From positions 1,907,501 to 1,971,500 of the forward strand of contig NZ_CP077426.1 of assembly GCF_019048845.1 (NCBI RefSeq): DNA of 64,000 nt, given 5' to 3'. The DNA comes from Vibrio mimicus. GTDB taxonomy: Bacteria > Pseudomonadota > Gammaproteobacteria > Enterobacterales > Vibrionaceae. This document shows positions 9,094 to 23,205 of the stretch, piece by piece. The stretch's first letter is position 1. Every line of letters begins with the position of its first letter. The notes under the pieces were generated by a model. The model was not told where the DNA came from and ran no database searches. It saw only the letters and a program-made list of their open reading frames with translations. Made by a program: the position numbers and the translations under genes.

Positions 9094-10463
9094 CGCAGTT
9101 TATCTCCAATCAGAATGTCGAGGGCTTTATCAACCCGAATGTGCTGACATGGTTCATCACTAGCCGTTGGCAGTGGTCGAAACGCCGTGAAATCAAACGG
9201 CTGTCGCTGCCAATAATCAGGTTCTGGCAATTTGCGCGGTACTTCACCGGGGAATAACGTGATCGACTCTCCTTCCATCGTCACACCTTGAATCGCCGCA
9301 ACCTTATTGTCTCCCTGCATGATGTAGCCCGATTGCGTGGCACGCACCGAGGCCATACTGATGCAGTTCATTTCAATATTTTCATACGCAGCATGTTGCC
9401 ACGCCGGATGAATCATCTGCTGCAATAGAGAAACCATGTTGACATGCTGCTCTGGTGTCACGTGATCAGCTTTGGTTGCGGCAAACAAAACTTTATCGAT
9501 TTTCGGCGCAAACAGACGACTGAGTAACCCGCTGCGACCATAACGGAAACTTTGCATGATCTGTTCAAGGGCGCTGCGCATATCCAGAAACGATTCATGC
9601 CCCACATTGAGTGGCGATAGGCAATCCACCAACACGATTTGGCGATCAAACGTCGCAAAGTAGTGCTTATAAAAAGCTTTCACCACCTTGTTTTGATATT
9701 CCTGATAGCGCGCTTGCAGCAAGGCGTAATAGCTCTGTTTGCTCACAGAATCTTGCGGCGCATGACATGGGAAGAATTGCAGCACAGGCGCACCTTCCAG
9801 CTCTCCGGGCAGTACAAATCTCCCCGGTTGCACCCAATGTAGGCCATTGGTTTTGCATTGATGCAGATAGTCGGTGTAGCGTGCAGCAATTTCCGCCAAG
9901 GTTTGTTCATTGGCTTCTTGACTAATATCGAGCTGCTCAACGGCCGCACACCATTCTGTTGCAAGTTCTTTGCGCAAGCCATGCAGGGCATTGAATTGCT
10001 GTACTGACCAGGTTGCGTAATCCATCTCTAATAGCGGTAAATCGAGCAACCATTCTCCGGGATAGTCGATGATGTCGAGATACAGAGTCGCGCTGCTTGT
10101 TAATAATTTTTTGCTGCGCTTTTTCGGCTTGTATTTGATCGCCAAGCGAATCTCGCTCACATCTCGTGTTGGCACTGGCCATTGTGCAGGACTGCTTTGC
10201 AGTTGCGCCAGCGCTTCATCATAAGCAAAGCGTGGCACCATCATGTTGGTTTGTGGCACACGTTTAGCACCGATAAAACGCTGTTCACGCCCCGCTGCCA
10301 ATAGCGGCAAATTCTGATGGGTGGAGGTGTGCAAAAGCTGATTAACCAGCGAGGTGATGAAGGCGGTTTTGCCCGCTCGAGAAAGCCCCGTCACGGCCAA
10401 ACGCACATGAGAATCCATACCGCGATGGATAAAATCGCTCATTTCTTGACGAATTCGCTGCAT
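9090..10463 (-). CDS. ycjX: YcjX-like P-loop NTPase (DUF463)
   Basis: 457 residues (E. coli YcjX 465). Walker A GLSRAGKT at residues 26-33; further conserved segments are [19 protein letters not shown], a G3-like DxxG/DYPGE motif, and [11 protein letters not shown] and FAATKADHV (NKxD-like specificity motif TKAD). Predicted GTPase/ATPase of unknown role, paired with YcjF. No signal peptide. The upstream region 10464-10686 holds a hairpin repeat and presumably the promoter. Confidence 0.9.
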
Positions 10464-16484: not shown

Positions 16485-17846
16485 ATGATTAGTGTATTTG
16501 ACATCTATAAAATCGGTGTTGGTCCTTCGAGCTCACACACGGTTGGACCGATGAAAGCGGGTAAAGAGTTTATTGATGAACTTCGCTCAATGGGAAAATT
16601 GCGCGACATCACTAAAATCACCGTGGACGTTTATGGATCGCTATCACTGACAGGGAAAGGTCACCACACGGATATCGCTATCATCATGGGTCTGGCAGGC
16701 AATACGCCAGAGAAAGTGGATATCGACTCAATTCCGGGCTTTATTGCTCGTGTAGAAGAAACTGAACGTCTTCCTGTTGGTATGCACTGTCATACCGTCT
16801 CTTTCCCTCGTGAAGGTGGCATGAATTTCCACCGCACTAATCTGGCATTGCACGAAAACGGCATGCAGATTCACGCGTGGATCAATGACGAGAAAATCTT
16901 CAGCAAAACTTACTACTCTATCGGTGGTGGTTTCATCGTTGATGAAGAACACTTCGGTAAAGAGAGTGAATCTCTCATTCAAGTTCCTTATGTTTTCCGC
17001 TCTGCTGAAGAGCTGCTGAACCAGTGTAAAGAGAGTGGCCTCTCGATCAGCACGCTAGTAATGGCGAACGAAAAAGCCATGCACTCAGACGAAGAAGTGC
17101 GCACTTATTTCGCGAACATTTGGCGTACGATGCGTGAGTGCATGGAACGCGGCATGAACACCGAAGGCATCCTACCTGGGCCTTTGCGTGTACCACGCCG
17201 TGCAGCAGCGCTGCGTCAACAACTGCTCACATCAGAAAAAACCACCAACGATCCAATGGCGGTAGTTGACTGGGTAAACATGTATGCGTTTGCGGTTAAC
17301 GAAGAGAACGCAGCTGGTGGCCGTGTAGTCACTGCACCAACCAACGGTGCGTGCGGCATTATCCCTGCAGTACTCGCCTACTACGACAAATTCATCCAAA
17401 CCGTGACTGAGAAAGACTACATCCGTTACTTCGCAGCTTCTGGTGCGATTGGTGGTTTGTACAAGCGTAATGCCTCTATCTCAGGTGCGGAAGTAGGCTG
17501 TCAAGGTGAAGTGGGTGTGGCTTGTTCTATGGCCGCTGCGGGCCTAGCTGAGCTTTTAGGCGGTAGCCCAGAGCAAGTGTGTATGGCGGCTGAAATCGCA
17601 ATGGAACACAACCTCGGTTTGACTTGTGACCCAGTGGCAGGACAAGTACAGGTTCCGTGTATCGAGCGTAACGGTATTGCAGCGGTAAAAGCGATCAACT
17701 CAACTCGTATGGCGCTGCGTCGTTCTTCTGCCCCACGTGTTTCACTGGATAAAGTGATTGAAACTATGCTGGAAACCGGCAAGGACATGAATGCTAAGTA
17801 CCGTGAAACTTCACAAGGTGGCTTGGCAATCAAAGTGATCTGCTAA
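16485..17846 (+). CDS. sdaA: L-serine ammonia-lyase (serine deaminase)
   Basis: Iron-sulfur enzyme converting L-serine to pyruvate and ammonia; 453 residues (E. coli SdaA 454). N-terminal beta domain starts [19 protein letters not shown]; the alpha domain has [15 protein letters not shown] and [20 protein letters not shown], which carry the cluster cysteines. GAGGC lies upstream of the ATG. Follows its transporter gene, so serine uptake and degradation are organised together. Ended by a strong terminator at 17869-17898. Confidence 0.96.
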
Positions 17847-17868
17847 TCGCAGCACTTTTTACTATTAC

Positions 17869-17898
17869 AAAAACGCCCGGATAGCCGGGCGTTTTTTT
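17869..17898. terminator. Strong terminator after sdaA
   Basis: AAAAACGCCCGG / CCGGGCGTTTTTTT stem with ATAG loop, usable from both sides (sdaA + and the hydrolase gene -). It marks the left border of the accessory block. Confidence 0.92.
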
Positions 17899-17911
17899 AA
17901 GCGCAAGTCTG

Positions 17912-19237
17912 TCAATCCAACGAAATGGCCAAACGACCGTCTATAAAGGCTTGCCATTTCTCTATCCGTTCAGGAGTTACATGAACATAAGGATGGTCTA
18001 AGTTGGGGTTAGCTACTTGACCTAAAGAGTTTCTTGCGAGTATCCAATGATGTAAGTTAATCCAACCCTTCATTACGTAAGGGGTATACGGTTCTACCTT
18101 ATCTTGAGCTTGAGGAACGGTTTGCTGCGCTTTCAAAAATGCCGATAGCACTTCTCGATCACCATATCGACTACCAACACGATACGATGAAGCATCTTTC
18201 CAATCCGTTGCATTACGGTACTCTTCGGTAATGTCATTAAAATCTTCTAGCATCTGATCATACAAGAACAAACATTCTGCATTATTCAGCATATCTACTG
18301 CTTTCAAAGTCGCACCAAAATAGCACAAGAATCTATACGCCAAGCTCAAAGTATTCTTATAACTTTTCGATGTATATGTACCTGCGATATTTTCACCAAG
18401 ATAGCGTAACCAAGACTTAGTATCATTGTTTGGTCTAACCACATCAGAATGATTGCCAGGCATTGGTAAGAATTCGATCCAAGCATTGGAAGATTGGTCA
18501 ACTATCAATTCAGGTCCGATGGTTCTGAAGTTCATACGATGTTCATTTAATGCAACTACGGCCCAATAAGTATCAATATTCGGTGTCAACGTGCGCGTAT
18601 CAACCTCATGCTTCACGAGATCCATTCCGGGAACAGGATCAAGTGCAAGGATATTAACTTTCAATTGAGGTAATACTTCATTAAGTAAATAAGCTTGCTT
18701 CAAACAAGTTACTGCACCACGGCTCCAACCAATGATATTTACCGTCCTAATATTTTGAGGATTATCACCGAATAGTAGATGCGTTAGCATCCATACTGCC
18801 TTATACACGTTATCGTTCCAACCGGCTCCCGTAGTTCTACCAGAGAGTTTCCATGGTCTAGGAGTATCACCATAAAAAGACTTTTGAAAGTCACTATAGC
18901 CCCCCCCTTTATACCAAGGCTTCTTGATCAGGTTATCTTGCTGACGGATTAAGCCATCTTTGGCTTGCTCACGAGTAATCGGATTGTCATTCCCTGGCCA
19001 TGTATGGCCGACAGAGGAGTGTGCACTTCCCTCCTCGACCGTATCAGAGCCACACCCTTCACAGATCATATAAGTTGGATTAGCGTGCTGAAGGGAAAAA
19101 CCTAGTGGCGCACTATCATCTTTGATAATAAGGGCTTCTTCACCACGCATAGCCTCACTCAGGATGCTAATGATTTCTGAACTCTGCTTGTTTCGGTGAA
19201 AATCCGTACCATGATTAAATATTGTAAAGACAGACAT
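17912..19237 (-). CDS. Putative serine alpha/beta-hydrolase (lipase/phospholipase-like)
   Basis: 441-residue protein without signal peptide or membrane helix. It begins VFTIFNHGTDFHR, an HGT-type oxyanion-hole start; the nucleophile elbow is GWSRG at 170-174 (Ser172), followed by LALDPVPG (Asp200 candidate) and PMPGNHSDV (His263 candidate). This spacing resembles the DUF2235/Tle-type lipases used as antibacterial phospholipases, but I cannot assign a subfamily. GGAA lies six bases before the ATG. Codons 111-113 are written by eight consecutive G residues, a slippage-prone tract upstream of the catalytic serine. It is divergent from the DUF2589-type operon across 241 bp; visibly AT-rich compared with sdaA. 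Could be a defence or antagonism effector, or a plain cytosolic lipase. Confidence 0.7.
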   Translation of the reverse strand: MSVFTIFNHGTDFHRNKQSSEIISILSEAMRGEEALIIKDDSAPLGFSLQHANPTYMICEGCGSDTVEEGSAHSSVGHTWPGNDNPITREQAKDGLIRQQDNLIKKPWYKGGGYSDFQKSFYGDTPRPWKLSGRTTGAGWNDNVYKAVWMLTHLLFGDNPQNIRTVNIIGWSRGAVTCLKQAYLLNEVLPQLKVNILALDPVPGMDLVKHEVDTRTLTPNIDTYWAVVALNEHRMNFRTIGPELIVDQSSNAWIEFLPMPGNHSDVVRPNNDTKSWLRYLGENIAGTYTSKSYKNTLSLAYRFLCYFGATLKAVDMLNNAECLFLYDQMLEDFNDITEEYRNATDWKDASSYRVGSRYGDREVLSAFLKAQQTVPQAQDKVEPYTPYVMKGWINLHHWILARNSLGQVANPNLDHPYVHVTPERIEKWQAFIDGRLAISLD

Positions 19238-19478
19238 ATATTATTCCACATTAGTTAAAAAGGAAAAAATACAATATCGTATTTATAAGCCCAGCATAAC
19301 CTGTAAATATTTCCCATCAATTCATGTAGTTTTAGAAAAACATCAACCCTCAATATCTATTTGGGGTTTATAACGAATAAATAGACATACAGTTAACTCA
19401 TTAGGAATTTCTTCCTTATTATTTCAATTATTCTAAATTGCTATATTTACTTCAACGAGAGAAAAGAAGGATTTAATC
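19238..19478. promoter_or_regulatory. Divergent promoter region of the accessory block
   Basis: 241 bp, very AT-rich, between the hydrolase gene (-) and the first DUF2589-type gene (+); should contain both promoters. An AT-rich -10-like GCTATATT occurs near 19440. No clear dyad operator was recognised. Confidence 0.5.
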
Positions 19479-20027
19479 ATGGCTTTATTTAGAAATAGAA
19501 AAACACTACCTGCCTCACCACAATATTTAGATGCGATTGTGAGAGGATTAAGTTACGTTGCAAACTGCGCTAGTGAATTGAGTTTGACTCACTACAAAGG
19601 ACTTATTGAGCAATTTTTTGATTACGACGAAAAAGAACAAACTTTTACACCTAAAACTGTCGATTTACGTCTCGATGACAATCATATTATTACAATGCCA
19701 TTAGTGGCAGTAACGGACGCAAAAGGTCTGTATCTTGATGAATTAGACGTTGCATTTTCTGTCAAAGTGACAGGAATTGATATCGGTGAGCTCACGGACA
19801 CGCTGAACAAAAACCATCCCCACTTCATTGTCGATCTAGCACCTAGCACGGCCAATAGAAACAGCTCAAGTAAAGACATTATTGATTTTAAAGCCAAATT
19901 CAAAGCGAATGAGGCACCAGAATGTGTGATGAAAATAATTGACAAATACAACAGTCAAATTCATCCACGTAAAACACAACTTCCGGAAGAAAGTACATCG
20001 CATGATGCGGTAAACCCAATGGCATAA
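19479..20027 (+). CDS. DUF2589-related protein A
   Basis: 182-residue soluble protein, no signal peptide. Its central segment MPLVAVTDAKGLYLDELDVAF-SVKV parallels the segment of the next gene product (VPILAIVNIPSLMIDEVDITF-DMEV), so the two are related by the beta-strand pattern PLxAIxxxxxLxIDExDVxFxxxV. That pattern is what I associate with the DUF2589 family (function unknown). An excellent AAGAAGGA site precedes the ATG. First gene of a three-gene operon (28 nt to the next). The C-terminus is polar and probably disordered. No catalytic residues are evident. Confidence 0.6.
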   Translation: MALFRNRKTLPASPQYLDAIVRGLSYVANCASELSLTHYKGLIEQFFDYDEKEQTFTPKTVDLRLDDNHIITMPLVAVTDAKGLYLDELDVAFSVKVTGIDIGELTDTLNKNHPHFIVDLAPSTANRNSSSKDIIDFKAKFKANEAPECVMKIIDKYNSQIHPRKTQLPEESTSHDAVNPMA

Positions 20028-20055
20028 TGCCAAATTAATCAATGAGGAATACACC

Positions 20056-20895
20056 ATGGCTTTAGAAAGCATGCAAAATCATTTTACCGGCTTACCAATG
20101 GAAAGCCTAATTGGATCACCTTTAAAAGCAGCTTGTGACTCACAAATAATGCTCGCTCGTTCCACCGTTGACTTTATTCGTGATGTTGGCTTTGAAGGAG
20201 ATAAAACTCGAACTGCTGACTTTTCATTTCTACAAAATGTCGTTACAGGAAAAGATGCTGCTGGAAATGACATTATTGAACAGAACAAAGTCAGTATGGA
20301 AGTACCAATCCTAGCGATTGTAAATATTCCCAGCTTAATGATTGATGAAGTTGATATTACTTTTGATATGGAAGTGAAGTCATCGGAAAGATCAGTGGAA
20401 ACTGAAGACAAAAGTGGCAAATTCTCAGCAAAGACAAAAATCGGTTGGGGACCAATCAGTGTATCGGCGAATATTTCAGGCAGTGTTGCATCCCACAAAG
20501 AGAATACACGTTCGAGCGATAATTCAGCGAAATACCATGTTCAGGTCCATGCAGCTCAGGCGGGTACTCCTGAAGGCCTATCACGTGTCCTTGATATTAT
20601 CGGTGAAGCGGTAGCACCAAAAGCAATATCCAATGAAACGGCAAAACCAGATAGTGACCTTGAAAAAGCAATGAAATATGTTATCGAGAAAGGGAAAGAA
20701 GTGGATTTAGCGGAAGTTAAATTACAAACCGCGCAGATGGCTCTCGCTAAAGATCCAAGTAAGCAAGCAGATGTAGATAATGCTCAAGCAGGCTTAACTG
20801 ATGCACAAGATGCACTAACCAAAGCAAATATGGCCATGCAGCTAGTGCGCAAAGGCCAAACTTATACGGATGCTCAAACAGCAGCGGGAATCTGA
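20056..20895 (+). CDS. DUF2589-type protein B with coiled-coil tail
   Basis: 279 residues, no signal peptide. N-terminal helical part (LIGSPLKAACDSQIMLARST), then the family core VPILAIVNIPSLMIDEVDITF followed by a polar linker and KIGWGPISVSANISGSVASH then SAKYHVQVHAAQAGTPEGLS, a beta-rich region typical of DUF2589 as I recall it. Residues about 195-270 are Ala/Gln/Asp-rich heptads (EVKLQTAQMALAKD, DNAQAGLTDAQDALTKANMA), a predicted coiled coil suited to oligomerisation. GAGGA lies 8 nt before the ATG. Second gene of the operon; 12 nt before the 91-residue gene. Biological role unknown; likely structural or carrier protein for the neighbouring enzymes (inference). Confidence 0.68.
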   Translation: MALESMQNHFTGLPMESLIGSPLKAACDSQIMLARSTVDFIRDVGFEGDKTRTADFSFLQNVVTGKDAAGNDIIEQNKVSMEVPILAIVNIPSLMIDEVDITFDMEVKSSERSVETEDKSGKFSAKTKIGWGPISVSANISGSVASHKENTRSSDNSAKYHVQVHAAQAGTPEGLSRVLDIIGEAVAPKAISNETAKPDSDLEKAMKYVIEKGKEVDLAEVKLQTAQMALAKDPSKQADVDNAQAGLTDAQDALTKANMAMQLVRKGQTYTDAQTAAGI

Positions 20896-20907
20896 TAGGG
20901 TCAATAT

Positions 20908-21183
20908 ATGGGTCCAGCACAGAACGTGCCAGCGTTAGACCTTTCTGAAGTACGTCATATCGAGCGTATTGTGGTTGGAAGGTATAACCCTAATGGCAAC
21001 GAAGATGATGCACACATGCAACGCCAAATTGAAAAATTAAACCGGTGTCTCAACGCCAGCCCCAAAGGGGTATTAATCGCCAAAGATACAGGTTTCAAAA
21101 TATTCAAAATGGGGGAAAACACGGTTGTTGCCCAGCAAGTTGCCTATCACATAGGGTTTAAGCGCAAGCCAAACTTTCTTTAA
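20908..21183 (+). CDS. Small protein of the DUF2589-type operon, unknown function
   Basis: 91 residues, basic C-terminus (GFKRKPNFL), no membrane segment. A central HMQRQIEKLNRCLNASPKGV helix is followed by a beta-rich region KGVLIAKDTGFKIFKMGENTVVAQQ. I do not recognise a family. AGGG about 7 nt before the ATG; 12 nt after the previous stop, so cotranscribed. A terminator follows immediately at 21187-21211, ending this transcript before the lysozyme gene. Possibly an immunity or adaptor protein; nothing in the sequence proves it. Confidence 0.6.
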   Translation: MGPAQNVPALDLSEVRHIERIVVGRYNPNGNEDDAHMQRQIEKLNRCLNASPKGVLIAKDTGFKIFKMGENTVVAQQVAYHIGFKRKPNFL

Positions 21184-21186
21184 TAA

Positions 21187-21211
21187 AATTGGGCTCTTTC
21201 GAGCCCAATTT
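21187..21211 (+). terminator. Terminator of the DUF2589-type operon
   Basis: AAATTGGGCTC / GAGCCCAATTT stem with TTTC loop, directly after the 91-residue gene. It means the lysozyme gene needs its own promoter. Confidence 0.85.
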
Positions 21212-21256
21212 AATAATCCTTCATACAACTAACATACTGTGTATTTAATAAAAAAT

Positions 21257-21303
21257 TTGACCACTACAAACCAAACCAAACCAAACCAAACCAAACAGAT
21301 AAT
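21257..21303 (+). promoter_or_regulatory. Candidate repeat-containing promoter of the lysozyme-like gene
   Basis: A -35-like TTGACC at 21257-21262 and a -10-like GATAAT at 21298-21303 flank the CAAAC array. Present spacing is 35 nt; loss of three or four 5-nt units would give 20 or 15 nt, bracketing the normal 17. Purely a pattern-based proposal. Confidence 0.3.
21267..21296. repeat. CAAAC pentanucleotide tandem repeat, six units
   Basis: Six perfect, uninterrupted 5-bp units between the operon terminator and the lysozyme-like gene, 19-49 nt before its ATG. A typical simple-sequence contingency locus by form. Confidence 0.95.
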
Positions 21304-21315
21304 ATAAGGAAAATC

Positions 21316-21945
21316 ATGACCAAACTAGACTCAATTTTTCTACCTAGTAAGGGGCTTTTTACATTTGAATCGGAAGGGCAAGAAGGTGGACGCTATCACA
21401 GTCGAATATTACAGGTTCCATCATTGCAATCAGGGCTGACTATTGGTCGTGGTTACGACTGTAAGGATAAATCAAGTTTAAAAATTGAAAATGACCTTTT
21501 GGCGGCAGGAATAAGTCATCAATATTCAAAAACAATAGCGCTTTCGTCAGGGTTAGCCGGAGAAAAAGTAAAGTCTTTTATCACTCAATATAATTTAAGT
21601 AACTTCGAAATCACGCCAGAACAACAATTAAAATTATTTGAATTAATTTACAATGAGATGGAAAATGATGTAATCAGAATATGTAATAAAGAGGACTGCA
21701 TCATAAAATATGGCAGTGTCATTTGGAACACACTGCCTCCACCGATGAAAGATATAACTGTAGACCTTAGATTTAGAGGTGACTACACCCCTATTTCTCG
21801 TCAAATAATTCAACCAAGCTTGGCTGAAAATGATCATTATGCCTTTATGGCCGCATTGTCAGATCAATCAAAATGGTCGAATGTTCCAATGGATAGATTT
21901 CAACGTCGAAGAACATATTTGATGGAAAGCCTTAAACTAAACTAA
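21316..21945 (+). CDS. Pesticin/GH24-like muramidase
   Basis: 209-residue protein resembling the catalytic domain of pesticin and T4-type lysozymes, which cleave the glycan strands of peptidoglycan. The triad pattern is visible: Glu18 or Glu20 in FTFESEGQ, Thr42 and Asp48 in GLTIGRGYD (pesticin-type E-T-D arrangement, known for that family). The remainder is helical, as in GH24 enzymes, and ends DRFQRRRTYLMESLKL. No signal peptide, no holin next to it, and no receptor-binding or translocation domain, so it cannot reach the periplasm alone. AAGGA lies six bases before the ATG. Expression may depend on the CAAAC array. Strongly AT-rich, suggesting horizontal acquisition. Confidence 0.68.
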   Translation: MTKLDSIFLPSKGLFTFESEGQEGGRYHSRILQVPSLQSGLTIGRGYDCKDKSSLKIENDLLAAGISHQYSKTIALSSGLAGEKVKSFITQYNLSNFEITPEQQLKLFELIYNEMENDVIRICNKEDCIIKYGSVIWNTLPPPMKDITVDLRFRGDYTPISRQIIQPSLAENDHYAFMAALSDQSKWSNVPMDRFQRRRTYLMESLKLN

Positions 21946-21957
21946 ATTAATAAAAAT

Positions 21958-21980
21958 AAAAGCGCTAAAGATGCGCTTTT
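21958..21980. terminator. Bidirectional terminator between lysozyme-like gene and Mor-family gene
   Basis: AAAAGCGC / GCGCTTTT stem with a 7-nt loop, located between two convergent genes. Confidence 0.8.
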
Positions 21981-22001
21981 ACAACATAAGGATTCTTATC
22001 T

Positions 22002-22364
22002 TCAAAACCTATTTTTTATATTAGCCACTTGTCTGACACCCAAACCAAACATTTTTGCAACTTCAACTCTCGACTTTCCTGATTCCAAATGCTTTAGTAT
22101 TTCTTTATCTCTGATCTGGTTAGCAATCCGTGAAGTTGTTGGAAGAGTAAGATACATCCCTCCATACTCTTCACTTAATATATCAAGTGACCTTAGTGGT
22201 AATAAGTTATTCAACTTGCTTCTTTTAGGATTTTTCGGTATGTAGACATCCTGCCCTCCATAATTACTTATAAGAATATACATATCCTCATAGCCAATTA
22301 ATTTTATTAGCTCCTGCATTAATATTGGTAACATGTTTTGGTTGATACTTTCGTTCCTAGCCAT
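22002..22364 (-). CDS. Mor-family transcriptional activator
   Basis: 120 residues counted from the ATG at 22364, which has AAGGCG at the right distance; the TTG-initiated extension to 22382 runs through that ribosome site and is unlikely. Family hallmarks: GGQDVYIPK at residues 36-44 (the beta-strand GG..YIPK signature of Mu Mor/C proteins) and a C-terminal helix-turn-helix SGKSRVEVAKMFGLGVRQVANI. Mor proteins activate phage middle transcription as dimers. Here the gene is convergent with the lysozyme-like gene and the only regulator in the block, so it is the likely activator of the block's promoters (inference). Confidence 0.8.
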   Translation of the reverse strand: MARNESINQNMLPILMQELIKLIGYEDMYILISNYGGQDVYIPKNPKRSKLNNLLPLRSLDILSEEYGGMYLTLPTTSRIANQIRDKEILKHLESGKSRVEVAKMFGLGVRQVANIKNRF

Positions 22365-22836
22365 TTTATCGCCTTTTATCAATCGTTATTGTGAGACAGA
22401 GAGATAATCTAAGCGTAAATATGCATATCAACATAGCATGTAAAATTTCCCCTATACCTGTACAGCTTTGCTGAGGTTTCTTTCAATCGTCAGTACAATA
22501 TGAGTTTAATTTTGAGAAGATAAGAACGAGCATCTTGATGCGCAGTTATTAGGATTCAAAATAAGCGAAAAAAAACCATTCAGAAGATGAATAAGAATGC
22601 AAACATGTACAGATAATTCTTTCGGATTGTTAGTCTTTCAATTATGTAGTGATGGCAATGTTATAAAAACTTAATTCGGATGACTAGGTATTATCCGCAG
22701 TAAAACCAATTTATGAGCATAAATACCAGCTTTGCCCTAAATCAGGCCACATATATATGTAGCCTAACCCATTAGTTTCATTATCTCTGCTACCGCCTAC
22801 TGTAAACATATGTCTTGGTAATGTGAGCTGCCAGAT
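22365..22836. other. Gene-free AT-rich segment between accessory block and queD
   Basis: About 470 bp with no ORF having a believable start, no tRNA and no clear direct repeat matching the left border at 17.9 kb. Contains the upstream side of the Mor gene; otherwise I see nothing definite in it. Probably the right border of the accessory insertion. Confidence 0.5.
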
Positions 22837-23205
22837 CTACTCACCGCGATAAATACAACCCGCCGTACAGGTTTCTTTAATCTCAACTTTGCTCAGCAAC
22901 GGTAAGCTTGGCTTGAGCTGTTGCCAAATCCATTTTGCCAACACTTCACTGGTCGGGTTCTCTAACCCTTCGATATCGTTCAGGTAATAGTGATCGAGAC
23001 GATCATAAATCGGTTTGAATGCCGCTTTAATTTCAGCAAAATCCACAACCCAACCTGTATGAGGATCCACCTCACCTTCAACATACAAGCGAACTAAGAA
23101 AGAGTGTCCATGCAGGCGGCCGCATTTATGACCAGCTGGCACATGCGGCAGGTGGTGGGCAGCCTCAAACATAAACTCTTTGTATAATTCTGTTTTCATC
23201 ATCAT
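22837..23205 (-). CDS. queD: 6-carboxytetrahydropterin synthase QueD
   Basis: Makes 6-carboxy-5,6,7,8-tetrahydropterin from dihydroneopterin triphosphate in queuosine/preQ0 synthesis. 122 residues (E. coli 121). Zinc ligands are visible in FEAAHHLP and CGRLHGHSF; the catalytic cysteine is in KCGRLHGH, and the C-terminal [12 protein letters not shown] is a family feature. The ATG is tripled (23205, 23202, 23199), with only a weak GAG upstream, so the exact start is uncertain by two codons. Single gene. Confidence 0.93.

Follow-up and report, generated by a model that had tools for sequence, protein, structure and literature searches.

What does a compact group of six genes do for the cell when two of them encode enzymes that would act on the cell envelope? 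This question is raised by a block between sdaA and queD in Vibrio mimicus, which we studied in a window of 64,000 nucleotides (contig NZ_CP077426.1, positions 1,907,501 to 1,971,500; all positions below are those of this window). A preliminary description, made from the sequence alone, had considered a lysis or antagonism module, a defence system and a domesticated phage-derived delivery system. The six open reading frames (ORFs) it listed are all intact between sdaA (end at 17846) and queD (3' end at 22837), and encode a serine hydrolase, a short and a long DUF2589 protein (DS and DL), a 91-residue protein (P91), a muramidase and a Mor-like regulator; the DUF2589 pair and the regulator score above Pfam cut-offs, and both enzymes lack a hydrophobic N-terminus, as had been noted. 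Conserved linkage and a shared candidate operator support the view that the block would act as one functional module with envelope-directed enzymes. Lysis or antagonism is the better half of the earlier options. We regard lysis or release as the most likely role and specifically propose a switchable lysis and toxin-release cassette, with a probability of about 0.46.

The first line of evidence is the linkage of the DUF2589 genes with P91. An alignment of 25 DL sequences, scanned against 84,980 genomes, yielded 266 stretches with a relative; locus counts out of 80 refer to the best 80 of these 266, among which are many close relatives, and the ORFs of all fetched loci were called mechanically. 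In 78 of the 80 loci both DS and P91 are found no more than 4 kb from DL, the exceptions being L009, a contig of 4.9 kb, and L055. The hosts span Proteobacteria, Bacillota and Bacteroidota, and include Vibrio, Pseudomonas, Xanthomonas, relatives of Massilia, sphingomonads, deltaproteobacteria, Lachnospiraceae and flavobacteria; genus-like labels were assigned for 48 of the 80 loci, 45 of them different, and 29 of these have a hydrolase in at least one locus. P91, described earlier as an unknown, indeed has no match in Pfam or NCBIfam, two of its relatives likewise have none in NCBIfam, and the protein is conserved over 51 aligned sequences. In the reverse search, covering 296 genomes of the window's family (taken to be Vibrionaceae), P91 was found at 11 places in 10 genomes, and all 11 adjoin a DUF2589 match. 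DUF2589 itself is sporadic, with matches in 27 of the 296 family genomes and in 3 of 369 genomes drawn from the class, and some of the family genomes carry a divergent form with P91 not nearby. These counts show DS, DL and P91 to be a unit conserved across phyla, and gene order and spacing suggest that the three proteins are produced together. The block belongs to a wider system that is apparently undescribed.

The second line of evidence concerns the enzyme encoded beside this triplet. A peptidoglycan hydrolase occurs within 4 kb of DL in 60 of the 80 loci, recognised in 55 by our own profiles (GH19-type in 28, GH108-type in 14, CHAP-type in 6, peptidoglycan-binding type in 4 and MltF-type in 3) and in five by Pfam (Amidase_2 in three, Amidase_3 in one and a PF11860 muramidase in one); within the profile-based set, Pfam was run on 3 of the 28 GH19-type, 1 of the 14 GH108-type, 1 of the 6 CHAP-type, 1 of the 4 peptidoglycan-binding and none of the 3 MltF-type proteins. 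The peptidoglycan-binding protein that was scanned has this domain alone, and Pfam confirmed the MltF-type protein of plasmid L002. Six further loci carry another toxin-type or hydrolytic enzyme, namely a Colicin-DNase/WHH protein (L013, L021), Exo_endo_phos (L062), EndoU (L047) and two matches that do not reach the curated cut-off, to an alpha/beta hydrolase (L010) and to a YopT-type protease (L050). Combinations also occur, such as Amidase_3 with a Tle1-like phospholipase (L069) and patatin with Amidase_2 (L031). Two Vibrio plasmids combine DS, DL, a P91 relative and a Mor-like gene with an MltF-like lytic transglycosylase, the window-type muramidase being absent from both, and a deltaproteobacterial plasmid carries the triplet with an annotated peptidoglycan-binding protein 1.6 kb behind P91. 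The hydrolase profiles hit 56 times in the bins between -3 and +4 kb of DL and 8 times in the remaining bins to 10 kb, a comparison biased towards the bins within 6 kb, since the profiles were built from clusters recurring less than 6 kb from DL. A hydrophobic N-terminus is present in none of 56 GH19-, GH108-, CHAP- and peptidoglycan-binding-profile hits, a set drawn from whole fetched loci, in which some hits are distant from DL, one comes from a viral contig and others may be spurious (L131, L068). A conserved triplet with exchangeable enzyme neighbours is, on this genomic evidence, a well supported description.

The window's own enzymes are consistent with this arrangement. The muramidase has no PF16754 match at E<=0.1, and relatives at 48-56% identity carry that domain, so the pesticin-like assignment made earlier stands through its homologues. 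Residues E20, T42 and D48, the putative counterparts of pesticin's catalytic Glu, Thr and Asp, are invariant in 20 of 20 aligned proteins, as is E23, and no credible PDB match was found. The muramidase is leaderless and stand-alone, in contrast to pesticin and VgrG-type muramidases, in which a receptor-binding or VgrG part is joined to the PF16754 domain. In L178:1-2118, a relative does occupy the C-terminus of a VgrG-like protein whose domains are Gp5, PG_binding and Pesticin. For the hydrolase, called lipase-like earlier, S172 (in a GWSRGA motif), D200 and H263 are invariant in 13 aligned proteins, but its score against the Tle1-like family PF09994 (16.3 bits) is below the Pfam cut-off of 27. 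It matches PDB 4m0m, presumably a Legionella protein, over residues 129-267 (phmmer E 4.7e-13), and its relatives are named DUF5621; compared with Tle1-like and DUF5621 hydrolases, it shares the motif, the invariant Ser, Asp and His and the PDB match, and differs in its score and in the absence of a type VI secretion system (T6SS) adaptor from the block. Relatives of the muramidase occur in 16 of the 296 family genomes. A fixed six-gene system was rejected, because muramidase relatives lie within about 1.5 kb of DUF2589 solely in the window's own genome and no hydrolase relative was found beside DUF2589 in the fetched loci by a single-sequence profile. Of the gene set whose conserved order the preliminary description had proposed to follow across genomes (DUF2589, pesticin-like, Mor and hydrolase genes), the two DUF2589 genes stayed linked, together with P91, and the muramidase and hydrolase did not hold as fixed parts.

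The third line of evidence is a candidate operator. Mor activators have a C-terminal helix-turn-helix and bind a dyad upstream of the target promoter. The Mor-like protein matches phrog_836, a late transcriptional activator (E 9.3e-22), and is the only Mor match in its genome. The palindrome GGAA-N4-TTCC, which reads GGAATTTCTTCC before DS in the window, lies upstream of DS in all seven Mor-bearing cassettes, five times exactly, at -75 to -78 of the DS start (the window, L003 with its ATG at 10004, L006, L007 and L008), and twice with one mismatch (L002 at -81 and L010 at -60). An exact copy also lies at -78 in L005, where a Mor gene was not seen; near the 97 DS-like ORFs of loci without a detected Mor gene, exact palindromes were found twice, that of L005 included. 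Other cassette genes carry it as well: the lytic transglycosylase gene has a site in L002 and shares that of DS in L003, L006, L007 and L008; the alpha/beta hydrolase gene has it in L007 and L010, not in L008; the MscS gene has it in L003 and L007, and with one mismatch in L006; and the Mor gene has it exactly in L008, with one mismatch in L002, L003, L006 and L007, and not in L010. Altogether, an exact site precedes 16 of 31 cassette gene starts (11 distinct sites, as divergent gene pairs share palindromes) compared with 0 of 74 control starts, and a site with at most one mismatch precedes 24 of 31 compared with 3 of 74; the cassette palindromes all lie at -92 to -60, the control starts belong to mechanical ORFs no shorter than 150 aa from seven of the eight loci, examined from -100 to -52 only, and the palindrome was first spotted by eye upstream and then tested partly on the same loci.

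Only the place of the palindrome matters, because its count over the window's own genome (57) compares with 62 for a reversed control, and a genome-wide regulon was rejected on this count. Because of the enrichment at cassette starts, the control-level genome count and the single Mor match, we take the palindrome and the Mor-like protein to be a putative dedicated local regulon. The conserved place of the site suggests that the Mor-like protein acts on it, and the one-mismatch copy before the hydrolase gene ties this gene, as a candidate member, to the DUF2589 operon. The features of the block are listed in Table 1.

Table 1. Coordinates and supporting evidence of the genes, candidate operators and predicted elements of the block.
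Feature	Position	Strand	Evidence or remark
Serine hydrolase, lipase/phospholipase-like, leaderless, 441 aa	17912..19237	-	invariant Ser/Asp/His, PDB match
Candidate operator of the hydrolase gene, one mismatch to GGAA-N4-TTCC	19303..19314	.	-77
Candidate operator GGAA-N4-TTCC	19404..19415	.	-75 of the DUF2589 operon, exact
DS, short DUF2589 protein, 182 aa	19479..20027	+	PF11655 74 bits, cut-off 23
DL, long DUF2589 protein, 279 aa, candidate pore-former	20056..20895	+	PF11655 161.6 bits, cut-off 23
Predicted long beta-hairpin of DL, residues 98-167, amphipathic tip about 121-144	20347..20556	+	AlphaFold2
Predicted C-terminal helical tail of DL, residues 201-276	20656..20883	+	AlphaFold2, pLDDT block means >90
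P91, small partner protein, 91 aa	20908..21183	+	family without match in the libraries searched
Tandem repeat (CAAAC)6	21267..21296	+	ends 20 bp before the muramidase start
Pesticin-C-terminal-like muramidase, leaderless, 209 aa, exchangeable slot	21316..21945	+	homologues with PF16754
Mor/C-type activator, candidate dedicated regulator	22002..22364	-	PF08765 33.8 bits, cut-off 24.9

In the mechanism that we propose, the Mor-like activator would bind the palindrome and switch the set on, probably in few cells. DL, aided by DS and P91, would assemble at the inner face of the cytoplasmic membrane, where its beta-hairpins would insert as a barrel-shaped pore. The AlphaFold2 model, together with the alternation of residues, gives this hairpin a polar stem and an amphipathic tip, and it is from these features that we infer a pore formed from inside; the C-terminal tail is shorter or absent in several distant relatives. 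The muramidase would then get to the wall, probably through the pore because it has no leader, the phospholipase-like hydrolase would attack membranes, and the cell would leak or lyse, releasing enzymes, toxins or particles. Such an outcome is suggested by the enzyme types and by neighbours in need of an exit: some DUF2589 loci lie close to leaderless toxin domains or to genes for R-bodies or contractile injection. As a guess, the beta-barrel pore is bold, yet it can be tested. More tentative than the cassette itself, and on balance doubtful, is the extension of this guess, in which DL would be the founding example of a new class of intracellular proteins that form beta-barrel pores and have the role of a holin, opening with DS and P91 the producer's cytoplasmic membrane for leaderless wall hydrolases or toxins in monoderms and diderms alike, with each lineage adding its own enzyme.

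In many species it is an open question by which route leaderless toxins, R-bodies and injection particles get out of the cell, and a three-gene core linked across phyla with a swapped wall-cutting enzyme gives a strong clue to a general system of exit or lysis. The small part list and the candidate operator make the cassette directly testable, and DUF2589 gains a first functional context.

A number of results weigh against the proposed lysis and release role. The DL model is modest (mean pLDDT 68.9, pTM 0.42; an earlier run on 25 sequences was poor, with a mean of 62.6), and residues 112-153, including the hairpin tip, fall below a pLDDT of 50. A structural search with the model returned no PDB match at E<=0.001; its alignments to pore stems are weak, unrelated proteins score equally, and any long hairpin could do so. 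Among the six block proteins there is no PHROG holin, and the scans with Pfam and PHROGs named no spanin in the block, though a diderm needs outer-membrane rupture; spanins are poorly covered by models of this type. The palindrome is absent, even at one mismatch, from the window's muramidase and Mor genes. MltF-type hits carry a hydrophobic N-terminus in 9 of 13 cases, and for these a pore would be unnecessary. In 14 of the 80 loci no lytic or toxin enzyme was recognised nearby, with Pfam covering one ORF each in eight of them and none in six. Likewise, a hydrolase was recognised in only three of 18 DUF2589 stretches from the window's family (L118 and, weakly, L131 by profile, L128 by Pfam; L129 and L135 are similar to these by eye), most of whose ORFs lay outside the Pfam scan. 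Finally, a colicin-type DNase or a glycosyltransferase near the triplet suits delivery over lysis.

Comparison with known systems places the cassette near, and outside, the holin-endolysin systems. A role of type 10 or holin-endolysin systems in toxin release is reported in PMC10847048, PMC10109510 and PMC12150058, and like the systems of Yersinia entomophaga and Salmonella, and TcdE of C. difficile, the cassette has a leaderless peptidoglycan hydrolase beside a proposed membrane opener, a local regulator and, at some loci, toxin-type neighbours. Unlike them, it has no holin that we could find: DS, DL and P91 have no PHROG match at E<=0.1, and the five hydrophobic small ORFs of the block all overlap coding genes in another frame or strand and give no holin candidate. 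The proposed pore would also differ, as a beta-barrel of a cytosolic protein. By analogy, the cassette may work as holin-endolysin (type 10) systems do, with DL substituting for the holin, but in view of the missing holin we do not assign it to them. DL likewise resembles beta-barrel pore-forming toxins (lysenin, aerolysin, epsilon, iota) in its predicted long hairpin with polar stem and amphipathic tip and in the weak pore-stem alignment, and differs from them in that its profile finds no PDB relative at E<=5, it has no hydrophobic N-terminus and it would be expected to act from inside. The missing listed fold is not evidence of a new fold. Within the literature covered, which left out most subscription papers and bioRxiv preprints, we found nothing on this system, on PF11655 or on DUF2589 with contractile injection; a single paper, PMC3949148, names DUF2589, in passing, for the Archaeoglobus genes AF0414-AF0417.

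The strongest competitor, with perhaps half the standing of the cassette reading, is effector delivery, in which a DS-DL-P91 particle or channel would carry the antibacterial enzyme outside or into neighbours while the producer stays unlysed. With its nucleases, phospholipases and peptidoglycan hydrolases, the cargo resembles the toxins of T6SS, contact-dependent inhibition (CDI) and bacteriocins. One relative of the muramidase is joined to a VgrG-like protein, tube, sheath and spike-tip-like genes stand next to the two triplet copies of one genome (L123), and signal-like small proteins downstream of P91 (28 loci, one profile) could be immunity proteins. Several results speak against delivery: tail sheath PF04984 has no match in the window's genome, the cassette proteins carry no tube, spike or adaptor domain by Pfam or PHROGs, and the small secreted protein that recurs elsewhere did not turn up in the block; injection genes were recognised beside one fetched locus only, L123. 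In that injection-system locus (L123:3557-14500), each triplet copy is accompanied by a sheath gene, the second of them short, and by a spike-tip-like gene that scores under the Pfam cut-off; a gp19 tube gene stands beside the first copy. RebB-like genes, typical of R-bodies, occur near DUF2589 genes in L121, L122 and L127; L121 also encodes an eCIS_core protein, and L122 what looks by eye like a similar one. PMC8322103 describes Reb clusters. RebB, eCIS_core, tube and sheath genes thus lie near some DUF2589 loci of the window's family, in contrast to the window block, which has none; a general R-body link was rejected, being real beside a few loci only.

Envelope maintenance, in which the cassette would remodel peptidoglycan and membrane under stress without killing the cell, is improbable. 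It draws on the Vibrio relatives, in which one palindrome marks the cassette together with genes for MltF-like transglycosylases and an MscS-type channel. The enzymes elsewhere are, however, leaderless endolysin types, nucleases and a glycosyltransferase toxin domain do not fit, and a housekeeping role sits poorly with the sporadic distribution of DUF2589 given above. Slightly less probable again is anti-phage abortive infection, in which DS, DL and P91 would sense infection and free a lethal enzyme. Sporadic distribution, insertion at a variable site and lethal effector types would agree with it, but the single PADLOC match in the block (E 0.028) is not credible, which also removes support from the earlier defence option, no sensor-like domain was found in the Pfam and NCBIfam scans, and the adjoining regulators (Mor-like here, AraC and LuxR types elsewhere) suggest programmed rather than infection-triggered use.

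Least likely of all is a remnant or captured phage module with a virion or late-gene role, which the match of the Mor-like regulator to phage late activators and the viral contigs L086 and L087 would favour, and which is opposed by the lack of any other PHROG match among the six proteins, by a DL match in only 1 of 50,697 phage records and by genes that are intact and conserved in genomes of several phyla. The domesticated phage-derived delivery proposed earlier is weak for the first two of these reasons and for the small number of viral contigs with a DL relative given below, and a prophage remnant was rejected on the Mor-only PHROG match, the absence of a sheath from the genome and the single Mor match. 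By PHROGs, the block has no integrase, capsid or tail genes, in agreement with the preliminary description, which had likewise noted the absence of integrase, holin and capsid genes. Relatives were found on three viral contigs by the DL alignment and on one by P91, with none by single-sequence DL or by the muramidase, and tblastn of a viral DL found none in phage records. A Foldseek search of the DL model against viral models gave one good match (A0A516MP19, E 2.8e-9). One of the three viral contigs, L085, has the gene map of bacterial locus L064. The DS and DL genes of L086 and L087 have phage-like genes in their region, namely one resembling a tail-fibre gene (L087), a weak match to a holin (E 0.002) and another to a head-tail adaptor (L086).

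G+C is 0.34-0.42 over 18.0-22.5 kb in 1-kb windows, which confirms the AT-rich character noted before, and elsewhere in 12-30 kb it ranges from 0.36 (immediately right of the block) to 0.51. Ten relatives were compared over stretches on the sdaA side of queD, and eight of these stretches contain both genes; the ends of the sdaA and queD tblastn matches are just 72, 81, 249 and 666 bp apart in four, and 1.7 to 8.7 kb apart, with other ORFs, in the other four. In L154-L157, junctions of such relatives, these other ORFs are by eye permease-like and efflux-like. No cassette protein matched the ten junction stretches at E<=1e-3. Judged by these alignments, the block is an insertion at sdaA-queD, because the gap measures 4,990 bp in the window against 72-666 bp in four relatives, and sdaA-queD is a variable junction, because gap and ORFs differ among relatives and cassette matches are absent from the ten stretches. 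No perfect direct repeat of at least 8 bases was found between 17700-18000 and 22300-22900. V. cholerae proteins 97% like the window's hydrolase and DL exist, and the block is therefore present in other strains.

Some further neighbours of the triplet recur. In a Lachnoclostridium locus (L071:4973-6496), a TcdA/TcdB-type glycosyltransferase domain lies between DL and P91, with an amidase behind P91. The small protein downstream of P91 (L034:11531-11920 and 27 further loci), often with a signal-like N-terminus, had no Pfam match in the three members scanned and is a candidate immunity or inhibitor protein. A membrane protein family recurs in 18 loci from Xanthomonas to flavobacteria (e.g. L044:12397-13395 and L050:13982-14767), without a Pfam match in one member and without an NCBIfam match in two. 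The tandem repeat before the window's muramidase gene is a possible phase-variation element of that gene, tracts like (CAAAC)n being known for phase variation. A tyrosine-recombinase-like cluster lies near the cassette in ten loci (L065:12217-13113 and nine further ones), with one member confirmed by Pfam, and such neighbours could mean an invertible switch.

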